A stretch of DNA of 13,604 nt, taken from NCBI GenBank assembly GCA_018384835.1, contig JAHAYB010000314.1, positions 1 through 13,604 of the forward strand, read 5' to 3'. This document shows positions 140 through 2,827 of this stretch, one piece after another. The translations under genes were made by a program, and so were the position numbers. The stretch is from Comamonas sp. Its GTDB lineage: Bacteria > Pseudomonadota > Gammaproteobacteria > Burkholderiales > Burkholderiaceae_C. Each line of letters starts with the position of its first letter. Within the stretch, counting starts at the first letter, position 1. The notes beneath the pieces were generated by a model that saw nothing but the letters and a program-made list of their open reading frames with translations, had not been told where the DNA came from and did no database searches.

Positions 140-189
140 TTTCTTAAATGTCAATAATTAAATTTCAACTGCGTACTTGGTTTTTCTAA
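1..189 (-). mobile_element. Integron gene cassette 4 (HNH cassette), partial
   Basis: This cassette begins at the G/TT cut point in the minus-strand core site GTTAGAA (184-190) and continues off the left edge, so its own attC is not seen. It carries the start of the HNH nuclease gene with a roughly 50-base AT-rich leader. It is the most distal cassette visible. Confidence 0.7.
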
Positions 190-244
190 CGTGAAAGCTC
201 AGCCGCGCCGCTTCTGCGGCGTCGGCTGCAGCGCCTGGTTAGGC
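184..244 (-). other. attC recombination site (59-base element) of the FtsZ-like/nuclease cassette
   Basis: On the plus strand the site runs from TTCTAAC (184-190) to GTTAGGC (238-244), 61 bases. The inner arms AGCCGCGCCGC and GCGGCGTCGGCT pair around a short loop. The right arm carries one extra T, the extrahelical base expected on the recombinogenic bottom strand. This fixes the cassette orientation as minus, in agreement with the genes. In minus orientation the inverse core is GCCTAAC and the core is GTTAGAA, whose last base departs from GTTRRRY. The inner arms are nearly the same as in the attC at 1807-1866. Confidence 0.9.
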
Positions 245-284
245 GCTCTTCGCTTTGTTGCACTTCAAGCTTGAATCCGTGCGC

Positions 285-1184
285 TCAAACTTCGCGATAG
301 GTGCCAGTTGCGAGACGGAACCATTCTTGCCCGCTGTCATTGTTCATGCAGAAATCATCGAATACGTGTTGCAGCGGAAACACGATATGCCCGTTGATCT
401 CTTGCGCCTGATCGCATCGGCAAAAGTAGATGGTAGCGCCACCTTGCAAGCGATAGGGATCCAATTTCCGAAGCTTACTGTCGCCAACGCTGAGTCTTTT
501 GAAGGTGACCTGCGCAGAAATTATTTTCCCGTTTTCAGAAACTCCGAGGATGTCAATGTCTTTCATGGTCCGTCCGACCGGCATCAGGGTGTGCCTGAGA
601 ACAGGAAGACCACGAATTCTCGCATTTTCTGTGCGCAGATACTCCATGCACATAACCTCCTGAAGATCGGGAGTCAGGCTATCAAGCCCGGCTGGAGGGG
701 TTCCTGTGACAAGCGCTATGACTCGCTGGCCAACTTTTCGCCACCGACAGAATGTGCCCTGCCTAGGCTGGACGGCCGTTAAAAAAATCGCCTCTTCAGC
801 GGTAAGATTTCGGGACTGTCGTACCTGCAAGGCCTTCAGCATAGCCTCACGGCCTTGGAGCTTATTCTTACCTCCCCATGATCCGCGAAAAAGCTCAACA
901 GATGACCCCGGAGAGACATAGCCCACCTTGCCTCCCGTCTTGCCACGGTAAGTGGCAAAGACGTATCCACCGTCTCTCGCCAACTCATGCAAGCGCTTTA
1001 ATGCTGATCGGGCATGGCCTATGTAGTCTGAGGGGTTCAGGCTGCGAGAGTCTCCACGGCTGAAATCGCCGTTCGTATCCTGAGGATAGTGGATGGCAAT
1101 CCGATCCTCCTTCCAGAGCCTATCTAGAGTGTCTTCATCAACGTCTAGAGCGGAACTGTGGCGGATAAAGTAAGTGTTTTTCAT
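285..1184 (-). CDS. Two-domain protein with PD-(D/E)XK nuclease-like C-terminal half (partner of FtsZ-like protein)
   Basis: This 299-residue protein belongs to no family I can name. Residues 1-160 form an alpha/beta domain starting MKNTYFIRHS, with a Trp-x5-IAIHYP strand (24-34) and a 'GGYVFATY...GKVGYVSPGS' segment (72-94). It faintly resembles PUA/EVE-type or Mrr N-terminal modules, which is speculative. Residues 170-280 follow the order of the restriction-endonuclease core: a helix with E176 (PDLQEVMCMEYLR), a strand with D209/D211 (KDIDILGVS), a strand ending in Q225-V-T227 (KIISAQVTF), a helix (SKLRKLDPYR), then a strand (ATIYFCRC). The expected E/Q-x-K is Q-x-T here, with K229 two residues later, so catalysis is uncertain. 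ATG 1184-1182 overlaps the stop of the FtsZ-like gene as ATGA and has no Shine-Dalgarno of its own, which points to translational coupling. A 12-base palindrome (264-275) and the attC follow the stop. Confidence 0.72.
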   Translation of the reverse strand: MKNTYFIRHSSALDVDEDTLDRLWKEDRIAIHYPQDTNGDFSRGDSRSLNPSDYIGHARSALKRLHELARDGGYVFATYRGKTGGKVGYVSPGSSVELFRGSWGGKNKLQGREAMLKALQVRQSRNLTAEEAIFLTAVQPRQGTFCRWRKVGQRVIALVTGTPPAGLDSLTPDLQEVMCMEYLRTENARIRGLPVLRHTLMPVGRTMKDIDILGVSENGKIISAQVTFKRLSVGDSKLRKLDPYRLQGGATIYFCRCDQAQEINGHIVFPLQHVFDDFCMNNDSGQEWFRLATGTYREV

Positions 1185-1738
1185 GTTAAAGATTGTTCCA
1201 AGCGAGAGCCTAACTCTTTCGCAACACGGTCAAAATATTCATCGAGCGATTCTTGTAAGGGGCTCTTGCAGTGGCTGGCAGTCGAGTGATCGTGAAGGAT
1301 CAGTACGTCCACATGCTCCTTTAGTTTGGGGAGAACTGTGTCTGCGATTGCAAGGGACTTTTTCTCAAAGGAAAACGGGCGTGTTGCGACGGCTGTGATA
1401 TGCATGCCAGAGCTCCGTGCGATCTCTGCCAATGCAGGGGTCGCCCCGCTCCCGGTAACTCCTCCGAGGCCGACGACAAGAATAACCCTCTGATTGCCAG
1501 CTATTATCTTTCGAAACTCAGCGGCTCCTTTTTCCACGGCCGCTTCTGCTGTCATAACTGTTGGGAGTCGCCCACTTTGAGAGCCAATGTTCAAGTAAAG
1601 CCGATGTTGTGCAGCTTTTTCCTCAAGGCGGTTCTCGGAACTGTTAACCAGCAAGACGTCGTAACCGGCTGATTGCCCGAGTTTTTCGGCTATCGCGCAG
1701 CCGGCTCCGCCGACTCCAACTATTATGGTTTTTTTCAT
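1181..1738 (-). CDS. Single-domain FtsZ/tubulin-like GTP-binding protein
   Basis: This 185-residue protein is clearly homologous to the GTPase domain of FtsZ. Visible features are the T1 loop GVGGAGC (8-14), an NSSENRL segment where FtsZ has NTDxQAL (32-38), and the tubulin-signature T4 loop GLGGVTGSGATP (90-101; usually GMGGGTGTGAAP). They continue with the T5 region ATRPFSFEKK (118-127; usually TKPFxFEGxxR) and the following 'HVDVLIL' strand. The protein stops in the helix corresponding to H7. The T7 synergy loop (NxDxxD) and the whole C-terminal domain are absent, against about 320-400 residues for FtsZ. It should bind GTP or GDP but cannot supply the catalytic aspartate to a neighbour in a filament. 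I chose ATG 1738-1736 over ATG 1750 because GGGAGG (1748-1743) sits just ahead of it and overlaps the earlier ATG. The stop overlaps the next gene (ATGA). It is not the cell-division gene: it lies alone in an integron cassette. Confidence 0.88.
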   Translation of the reverse strand: MKKTIIVGVGGAGCAIAEKLGQSAGYDVLLVNSSENRLEEKAAQHRLYLNIGSQSGRLPTVMTAEAAVEKGAAEFRKIIAGNQRVILVVGLGGVTGSGATPALAEIARSSGMHITAVATRPFSFEKKSLAIADTVLPKLKEHVDVLILHDHSTASHCKSPLQESLDEYFDRVAKELGSRLEQSLT

Positions 1739-1742
1739 ATCG

Positions 1743-1748
1743 CCTCCC
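1743..1748 (-). promoter_or_regulatory. Ribosome binding site deciding the FtsZ-like gene start
   Basis: GGGAGG on the minus strand lies 4 bases before ATG 1738. It overlaps the alternative in-frame ATG at 1750, which would encode only four more residues from the ribosome site itself. This supports the shorter protein. Confidence 0.8.
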
Positions 1749-1806
1749 ATAGCTTGTTGCGGACGATAGCAAACGCTCCGACAGAGTGTGTCGTAGTCTT
1801 TGGGGC

Positions 1807-1866
1807 GCCTAACGCCTGAATTAAGCCGCGCCGCGAAGCGGCGTCGGCTTGAATGAATTGTTAGGT
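1807..1866 (-). other. attC recombination site of the two-membrane-protein cassette
   Basis: The site spans 60 bases from GCCTAAC (1807-1813) to GTTAGGT (1860-1866) on the plus strand. The inner arms AGCCGCGCCGC and GCGGCGTCGGCTT pair around a GAA loop. As in the leftmost attC, the right arm has one unpaired T. In cassette (minus) orientation the inverse core is ACCTAAC and the core GTTAGGC fits GTTRRRY exactly. Confidence 0.93.
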
Positions 1867-1870
1867 GCCA

Positions 1871-2098
1871 CTACCGACGCGCACCCGGGTCAAGACCAAG
1901 CAGACGCAACACCCAATTTAGGCCGAAGCCAACAATCAGTGGCCACCAATGCACAAGCACGATAGCCAATACTGAAAAGCCAATTGATACGATTGACGAT
2001 AGCAACAGGCCAATGTGCTTGGTCTGTGCATAGGCCGACAAGCCGCCGATGGCCAACAGAATGGACAGACCGGCAAGAATATAAATGACAATAGCCAT
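1871..2098 (-). CDS. Small integral membrane protein (cassette-borne, unknown function)
   Basis: This 75-residue protein is very hydrophobic. One membrane segment covers about residues 2-22 (MAIVIYILAGLSILLAIGG...), and a second covers about 30-65 and may be split at HWWPLIVG. The C-terminus, LGLDPGARR, is basic, consistent with a cytoplasmic end. ATG 2098-2096 follows the stop of the 115-residue gene by 3 bases, so the two are likely translated together. I do not recognise a family. Frames on the same strand that overlap it lack cassette-appropriate starts and were discarded. Confidence 0.65.
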   Translation of the reverse strand: MAIVIYILAGLSILLAIGGLSAYAQTKHIGLLLSSIVSIGFSVLAIVLVHWWPLIVGFGLNWVLRLLGLDPGARR

Positions 2099-2101
2099 GT
2101 G

Positions 2102-2449
2102 TCACCGAAGAAGCCAGGCAACCGCGCATACGACACCAAGCAATATGACTGCTATTGGCGCGATGAGTTGAGTGCTCTCCTTAGCCGTTGGCAGGAACAG
2201 ACGGGTAAAAATGTTGCCGCCAAGTAGCGCGGCAATTGGCCCCCACCAGCCAACCGCTAGGTAGCCAAAGATGAGCGAGCCTACCAATGCAATATATGCG
2301 ATGCCTTGCAACCAAGAAAAGCCTGCGAAATACCATGCACCGCCCCGCCAGCCTCGCTGCGTTGCATAGCCAGAATAGGCAATCATGGCCCAGCCGGAAC
2401 CGCACAAGGCAACGGCAGCTATCAGAAGTATCAATTGCAGAGAATGCAT
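2102..2449 (-). CDS. Multi-pass membrane protein (cassette-borne, unknown function)
   Basis: This 115-residue protein has about four hydrophobic segments: residues 4-24, about 38-62 (GAWYFAGFSWLQGIAYIALV), 64-80 (GYLAVGWWGPIAALLG) and 95-113. It is rich in Gly, Trp and Ala, with a short polar stretch (LPTAKESTQ, 87-95) between the last two. The start at 2449 lies about 15 bases inside the cassette without a visible Shine-Dalgarno. It is followed closely by the 75-residue membrane protein gene and probably works with it. I assign no function. Confidence 0.68.
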   Translation of the reverse strand: MHSLQLILLIAAVALCGSGWAMIAYSGYATQRGWRGGAWYFAGFSWLQGIAYIALVGSLIFGYLAVGWWGPIAALLGGNIFTRLFLPTAKESTQLIAPIAVILLGVVCAVAWLLR

Positions 2450-2458
2450 GGCTGTGGC

Positions 2459-2530
2459 ACCTAACGTTTAGCTTGAGGGGCGCGGAGCCGGCTTGCCGGC
2501 GGAGCGTCCCTCTCGAAGCGCTGGTTAGCA
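2459..2530 (-). other. attC recombination site of the secreted-protein cassette
   Basis: The site spans 72 bases from ACCTAAC (2459-2465) to GTTAGCA (2524-2530) on the plus strand. The arms GAGGG...CGC...GCCGGC and GCCGGC...GCG...CCCTC pair, with a 3x3 internal loop (GGA/GGA). Its arm sequence differs from the two attC sites to the left, so this cassette probably comes from another integron lineage. Confidence 0.88.
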
Positions 2531-2827
2531 ACTTCAATCCTTGTCCATCTCAAAGGTTCGATACTCCCCTGAATCTTGGTCGTAAACCTCAACTTCTACT
2601 GTTGAGCCACTATCTTGGATCGATTCAACGTCGCCATAGCGATACTCGCCCTTGTCGTAGTCGTAGTACTCAATTTCGCGGCCTGGGCGGACAAGTTGGC
2701 CTTTTTCAATCTCGACATAGTTTCCGGATTCGTAGTCGTATCCATCCCATGCAGCAGCCGGCGATGTGAAAGCGAGAATGGAACAAATGATTAACAGATT
2801 TCGCATAAGGGCCTCCTTTGTTGCTAA
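2465..2827 (-). mobile_element. Integron gene cassette 1 (attI-proximal): secreted small protein
   Basis: This 363-base cassette lies between the core-like GTTAGCA read on the minus strand at 2828-2822 and the core at 2465. Both the proximal boundary and the attC inverse core carry the same GTTAGCAAC stretch. One gene with a strong Shine-Dalgarno fills it. Confidence 0.82.
2534..2806 (-). CDS. Small secreted acidic, Tyr-rich protein (possibly DUF5334-like)
   Basis: This 90-residue protein starts with a signal peptide, MRNLLIICSILAFTSPAAA, with likely cleavage after the last Ala. The mature part of about 71 residues is acidic and Tyr-rich, with repeated E/D-Y pairs (WDGYDYESG near 20-28, EYYDYDKGEYRYGDVE, YDQDSGEYRTFE). 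The alternation suggests a small all-beta fold. It recalls short exported 'WDGYDYESG' proteins in Proteobacteria, which I tentatively link to DUF5334 from memory. AGGAGG (2817-2812) sits 5 bases before ATG 2806, a strong ribosome site. Function unknown. Confidence 0.75.
   Translation of the reverse strand: MRNLLIICSILAFTSPAAAWDGYDYESGNYVEIEKGQLVRPGREIEYYDYDKGEYRYGDVESIQDSGSTVEVEVYDQDSGEYRTFEMDKD

Follow-up and report, generated by a model that had tools for sequence, protein, structure and literature searches.

An integron gene cassette of Comamonas sp. couples a short FtsZ-like protein with a nuclease-like protein and suggests a two-part system, possibly directed against foreign DNA

McrBC systems are two-gene operons in which a GTP-hydrolysing protein works with a restriction-fold nuclease on modified DNA, and EVE domains are common as their readers (PMC10602043). 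The EVE-PD-(D/E)XK and EVE-HNH modification-dependent endonucleases, among them VcaM4I, carry a PUA-superfamily reader before the nuclease domain in one protein and lie near restriction genes; PMC7641849 reports the EVE-PD(D/E)XK architectures, and PMC7897488 describes NTP-independent enzymes of this kind as typically single genes. An integron gene cassette on a 13,604-base contig of Comamonas sp. (JAHAYB010000314.1; the entire contig is called the window here) invites comparison with these layouts. The cassette codes for an FtsZ-like protein of 185 residues and a nuclease-like protein of 299 residues.

The window pair shares with McrBC the combination of a predicted GTPase gene and a predicted restriction-fold nuclease gene. 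In McrBC, however, the GTPase McrB is an AAA+ protein and carries the reader, whereas the window pair has a predicted tubulin-fold GTPase and a predicted reader on the nuclease. No AAA+ family occurs among the Pfam matches of the FtsZ-like protein or among 25 of its 28 NCBIfam matches; judged by these profiles, the window pair is not McrBC, as it has no AAA+ subunit. In contrast to the EVE-PD-(D/E)XK enzymes, the window nuclease is overlapped by an FtsZ-fold gene, and a threonine replaces the lysine of its predicted catalytic motif. MspJI, which joins an SRA domain to PD-(D/E)xK, shows no detectable sequence similarity to the 299-residue protein, whose reader looks EVE/YTH-like and not SRA. 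The McrB-family protein PcdA of Staphylococcus aureus binds FtsZ and so provides a precedent for a link from restriction to FtsZ, connecting EVE domains and type IV restriction proteins with it; PcdA differs in being a derived AAA+ protein of cell division to which no restriction subunit is linked. Its authors hypothesize that certain McrB systems may localize to division septa (PMC10602043). Tubulin/FtsZ-fold proteins also appear in predicted GTPase-centered conflict systems, but in those described in PMC7159879 other GTPases occur together with HSP70 or vWA proteins, whereas the window cassette holds two genes alone. The literature search returned no paper joining integron, phage defense, gene cassettes, and FtsZ, nor one joining integron, restriction endonuclease, and FtsZ-like; most subscription papers lay outside this search, which therefore does not show that such a paper is missing from print. 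The nuclease probably adds a new member to a layout already described, and there is a real chance that the pair of FtsZ fold and nuclease is a new kind.

Whole-genome searches revealed the short FtsZ-like protein in two further genomes, Alkalilimnicola sp. S0819 (G072) and Marinobacter fuscus (G901). In all three readable loci, including the window, the next gene codes for a probable nuclease, each time from a different family; two of these calls are based on fold or Pfam and one on a motif. The Alkalilimnicola gene overlaps by GTGA the gene for a 179-residue protein with a GIY-YIG-type motif string. This pair is convergent with hsdR of a type I restriction locus only 30 bases away, which leaves no room for an attC site of the size seen in the window. 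The GIY-YIG assignment was made by motif, with a Pfam value of 0.088, below cut-off; the motif expression, drawn up with knowledge of this sequence, gave no match among 200,000 shuffles. This partner has no significant PDB match, no NCBIfam, PADLOC, or PHROG match, and no homologue in the viral contigs, phages, and plasmids searched. Between hsdS and hsdR of the same type I locus (L075 4591-5583), a further protein shows a death-on-curing-type C-terminal half, just under the NCBIfam cut-off. The Marinobacter partner is a 332-residue PDDEXK_4 nuclease (Pfam 1.8e-11, cut-off passed) located 82 bases past the FtsZ-like stop and resembling the PADLOC candidate PDC-S26 (5e-11). Here, the pair lies inside a cassette with an R' site upstream and an attC site downstream.

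Because the FtsZ-like protein stays while the nuclease differs, the former would be a general control part and the latter an interchangeable effector. The reading preferred here, held at a probability of roughly 0.5, is a two-gene restriction-like module in which the FtsZ-like protein is the control subunit for interchangeable nucleases. The pattern of a constant FtsZ fold and a variable nuclease is better explained by a control subunit than by chance or by a toxin-antitoxin pair of fixed composition. A wider version is more doubtful and is put forward tentatively, namely, a new two-part immune class with a polymerization-incompetent FtsZ fold as the universal nucleotide-sensing control subunit and with nucleases of unrelated folds swapped between conserved cassette ends; on this view, DNA restriction would be tied to the GTP state of the cell or its division ring.

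The cassettes of the window and Marinobacter share both ends. At the 5' end, 598 columns with 74% identity begin at the R' site, cover the leader, and reach across most of the FtsZ-like gene (L091 1299-1892). At the 3' end, 94 columns with 91% identity comprise the cassette end and attC. Between these ends there is no significant match, and the nucleases differ. Among 72,556 plasmid records, none matches the shared 3' end, which is thus not a common resistance-cassette end; the two other attC sites of the window also differ from it. These alignments are most simply read as an exchange of the nuclease within a cassette whose FtsZ-like gene and recombination site were retained. Inspection by eye of the group P0103 (18 members, 29 contigs) suggests an upstream cassette open reading frame (ORF) running through attC into the same leader, which hints at the same cassette setting. 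Evidence for the same two genes together elsewhere is suggestive only: the longest contig of both P0110, a frame-disrupted FtsZ-like protein, and P0029, an 81% nuclease relative, measures 2853 bases, with a simulated probability of a chance match of 0.15 anywhere in the two lists and of 0.005 for the closest relatives only, a restriction chosen afterwards. In the Marinobacter cassette, a 74-residue ORF in another frame (L091 1948-2172) has its start in the GTGA of the FtsZ-like stop and spans the gap to the nuclease. At A_AAA_AAC (about 2039-2046 of L091), a -1 step joins its frame to that of the nuclease, so a programmed frameshift or the leftover of an exchanged gene is possible. Downstream of this cassette lies a 476-residue ORF (L091 3910-5340) that by eye is group II intron reverse transcriptase-like.

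The FtsZ-type domain that an earlier note had read from the letters of the window is borne out by Pfam Tubulin (7e-17, cut-off passed) and by the best PDB sequence matches, which are FtsZ (7e-15). The AlphaFold2 model (pLDDT 85.5), compared by Foldseek with E. coli FtsZ (306 residues in the structure), gives a TMq of 0.84 and a TMt of only 0.52, the latter because the C-terminal domain is absent from the short protein. The 185-residue chain shares the N-terminal GTPase domain of the tubulin/FtsZ family and stops after an H7-like helix, without the C-terminal domain that contains the T7 catalytic loop. FtsZ hydrolyzes GTP once one subunit has inserted its T7 loop into the pocket of its neighbor, and the signature loop of FtsZ reads GGGTG(T/S)G. 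Alignment with FtsZ shows that the phosphate-binding loops are largely retained (GVGGAG, GGVTGSG, and PFSFE in the window protein), the T3 region is shortened, and the T6 region is replaced by an [HVQ][DN]H motif that recurs through the family. The signature loop appears as GG[VIA]TGSG in five of six aligned rows; other variants, GGNTGSQ and GGAIGSG among them, occur across the wider family. The residues that we take to hold the guanine in FtsZ appear altered.

In the phylogenetic tree, 17 short FtsZ-like proteins form one side of a branch with a support of 99/97, opposite 22 FtsZ and 8 other short tubulin-fold proteins, and hence do not group with ordinary FtsZ. This tree omitted P0089, P0110, and P0111 as fused or frame-disrupted and used P0103 and P0109 trimmed to the FtsZ-like part. 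The dN/dS ratio of the window protein against its Marinobacter homologue is 0.23, and three pairs of short FtsZ-like proteins give 0.23 to 0.24. On this sequence evidence, the short FtsZ-like protein is a real, selected, and separate family rather than a broken ftsZ. In P0089 (106 member sequences, 4 contigs), a short FtsZ-like protein is fused behind a DUF1382 domain, where a chimera or read-through is possible. A further short FtsZ-type group of 233 to 283 residues (P0116, P0119, P0120, P0159, and P0191), without the FtsZ C-terminal Pfam domain, forms a separate branch with a support of 98/91.

Two of 369 genomes of the class contain the short FtsZ-like protein, the window's own included; the frames matched in G149 and G261 have 363 and 398 codons and were counted as ordinary FtsZ. 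Further genome sets gave 0 of 390, 1 of 124, 1 of 151 (the same Marinobacter genome), and 1 of 384 (the window's own). In the order of Alkalilimnicola, 51 of 54 genomes matched at a loose cut-off; only Alkalilimnicola sp. S0819 had a place at 253 bits, and the remaining places reach 87 to 103 bits, including two in frames 238 and 286 codons long. A scan of IMG/VR showed no relative of either window protein, and 50,697 phage records contain no nuclease match and three FtsZ-like matches over 25 to 26% of the length, one annotated FtsZ; a viral origin was rejected on these grounds. Carriage of the pair on plasmids was likewise not seen, as none of the plasmid records matches the cassette as a whole. 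The FtsZ-like protein matches there over 26% of its length in two 2.2-Mb gonococcal records, presumably ordinary ftsZ, and the nuclease has a 56% relative on one Vibrio harveyi plasmid and distant ones on two archaeal plasmids.

As a one-domain member of the FtsZ/tubulin fold, the short protein keeps most phosphate-binding loops and lacks the T7 loop and C-terminal domain needed for FtsZ-like polymerization and GTP hydrolysis. For its partner nuclease, it would be a guide subunit or a switch that depends on a nucleotide, through GTP gating, by holding the nuclease in check, or by delivering it to the division machinery. As the window nuclease seems to bear its own reader, the FtsZ-like partner would set when or where the nuclease acts. 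Candidate modes are a GTP-gated switch, loosely as McrB for McrC, and contact with host FtsZ at the septum. The nuclease would cut modified foreign DNA with its modified-base reader ahead of the PD-(D/E)xK domain. Such a module presupposes that the two proteins interact physically, that the FtsZ-like protein binds a nucleotide, that the nuclease cuts DNA with a specificity for modified bases, and that the pair serves in defense. Should the two proteins work as a unit, nuclease-based defense would have recruited a cytoskeletal GTPase fold for its control, in parallel to the AAA+ protein McrB and from a different superfamily. Cell division or GTP status would then have a concrete and testable link with restriction of foreign DNA, and the cassette would keep its regulator while exchanging its effector. 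Clear predictions follow for phages with modified DNA.

The same fold could also make the FtsZ-like protein itself the effector. As a one-domain FtsZ mimic, it would cap host FtsZ filaments and block division of the infected cell, with the nuclease acting on DNA independently. Its likeness to the N-terminal domain of FtsZ suits such a role, and structurally a protein without a T7 loop could accept that of host FtsZ but not pass polymerization on; it has also diverged considerably from the product of the host's ftsZ (32% over residues 6-148). The short T3 and the motif in place of T6 would, however, be expected to disturb an FtsZ-like longitudinal contact, and a mimic alone leaves the adjacent nuclease gene in all three loci unexplained; this alternative appears unlikely.

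The 299-residue protein shows no significant Pfam, NCBIfam, PADLOC, or PDB sequence match and matches one unnamed PHROG (9e-11); PADLOC gives no family for either window protein at an E value of ≤10. The profile searches proposed in the earlier note placed the FtsZ-like protein in Tubulin and found no Pfam, NCBIfam, or PADLOC family for its partner. Structure prediction is compatible with the nuclease fold expected there: both halves of the AlphaFold2 model (pLDDT 91.6) match modification-dependent enzymes. Of 84 homologues found at an E value of ≤1e-3 (the window's own included), 65 were covered by the alignment, in which E176 and D211, the two residues singled out beforehand, are invariant, as are three others (Table 1). 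T227 is nearly invariant and sits at the lysine position of the catalytic D...(D/E/Q)xK motif, for which the invariant K237 might stand in, judging from the alignment.

A scan of genome contigs shows this nuclease family in 24 loci, ranging by their titles from proteobacteria to Bacteroidota, Verrucomicrobiota, and archaea. Among 61 relatives and 369 genomes of the class, it was found once each, both times in the window's own genome. None of the 24 loci contains a short FtsZ-like protein in the DNA stretches read, which in L004, L020, L022, and L026 extend less than 500 bases upstream. Whole-genome searches for an FtsZ-like protein in 17 of the 24 nuclease genomes matched in 15, at 19 places that all score 61 to 77 bits, the range of ordinary FtsZ, compared to ≥160 bits for the short family; one of these places (L065) is in a 225-codon frame close to the contig end. 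On this basis, the idea that precisely these two families generally go together was rejected. At least 5 of the 24 loci show type I, type III, type IIG restriction, or BREX genes within 3 kb of the nuclease, a count that covers nine neighbor proteins from five loci chosen by eye: type III in L007, a BREX helicase in L009, type I in L010 and L014, and type IIG in L012. With these neighbors and without the short FtsZ-like protein, the nuclease by itself looks like a stand-alone defense nuclease. A survey of this kind had been suggested together with a role in phage or plasmid defense. In the 24 loci, proximity to defense genes was found and adjacency of the two families was not. The earlier interpretation is partly supported, and a role in defense would still be its inferred part.

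This distribution also bears on the idea that the FtsZ-like protein serves as an immunity or chaperone partner and, in the manner of a toxin-antitoxin pair, silences a toxic nuclease until a trigger arrives. Its upstream position, the overlaps in two of three loci, and partners that differ and are all nuclease-like would suit such a role, but one FtsZ-like family meets three unrelated nucleases, whereas antitoxins usually co-diverge with a single toxin family, and the nuclease family does without the FtsZ-like protein in 24 of 24 loci; this explanation appears improbable. Equally improbable are chance neighbors, an independent type IV restriction enzyme beside an FtsZ-like protein with an unrelated job, for although the nuclease is normally alone, just three loci are readable, and cassettes can capture unrelated genes, all three loci have a nuclease gene next, each a different one, with 4-base overlaps in two and no room for attC behind one.

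The features of the cassette are collected in Table 1. The left end of the window up to 2530 is an integron cassette array on the minus strand of a 2.8-Mb source genome (526 contigs, 85% complete). To our knowledge, the functions of most environmental integron cassettes are unknown. The earlier note's description of an ATGA-overlapping gene pair packaged as one mobile cassette with its own attC stands: both ORFs are on the minus strand and overlap at 1184-1181, attC sites in one orientation flank them (184-244 and 1807-1866), and the bounds are exactly 1812-190 when the cut is placed inside the R' sites. Departures from the consensus occur at the last base of R' in attC1 and the first base of R'' in attC3. 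An alternative FtsZ-like start 12 bases upstream of 1738 would give 189 residues, but GGAGG directly precedes 1738.

Table 1. Features of the cassette and its array in the window
Feature	Position	Strand	Basis or remark
Integron gene cassette	190..1812	-	5' end 1812, 3' end 190; R' GTTAGGC (attC2), R' GTTAGAA (attC1); both ends common to the Marinobacter cassette
Cassette leader with ribosome-binding site GGAGG (1747-1743)	1739..1812	-	Read directly
FtsZ-like short protein, 185 residues, N-terminal GTPase domain only	1181..1738	-	Stop included; Pfam Tubulin, AlphaFold2, Foldseek
ATGA overlap of FtsZ-like stop and nuclease-like start	1181..1184	-	ORF reading
Nuclease-like protein, 299 residues	285..1184	-	Stop included; 84 homologues, AlphaFold2
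Predicted EVE/YTH (PUA-superfamily)-like reader domain, residues 1-162 of the 299-residue protein	699..1184	-	
Predicted PD-(D/E)xK-like nuclease domain, residues 164-294 of the 299-residue protein	303..695	-	E176, D209, D211, Q225, K237 invariant
attC1, closes the cassette	184..244	-	61 bases; most of it inside the 94-column stretch 91% identical to the Marinobacter cassette end
attC2, belongs to the preceding cassette; R' is the 5' boundary	1807..1866	-	60 bases, hairpin fold
attC3 of the array	2459..2530	-	72 bases, imperfect R''

No integron integrase in the window's incomplete genome passes the TIGR02249 cut-off, with four matches below it; the array may therefore lack an integrase of its own. 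On the 5' side of the array, a DUF5334 protein (2534-2806, minus strand; Pfam 8e-24) adjoins an argA-like gene with amino acid kinase and acetyltransferase domains and not an integrase. The neighboring cassette (1871-2449, minus strand) contains two tandem ORFs of 115 and 75 residues, both apparently membrane proteins by eye and without a family. On the other side, the next cassette begins with an ORF start of 46 residues cut by the contig end (2-139, minus strand), which has no significant Pfam match and by eye is HNH nuclease-like (RCSI..C....LEIHHID).
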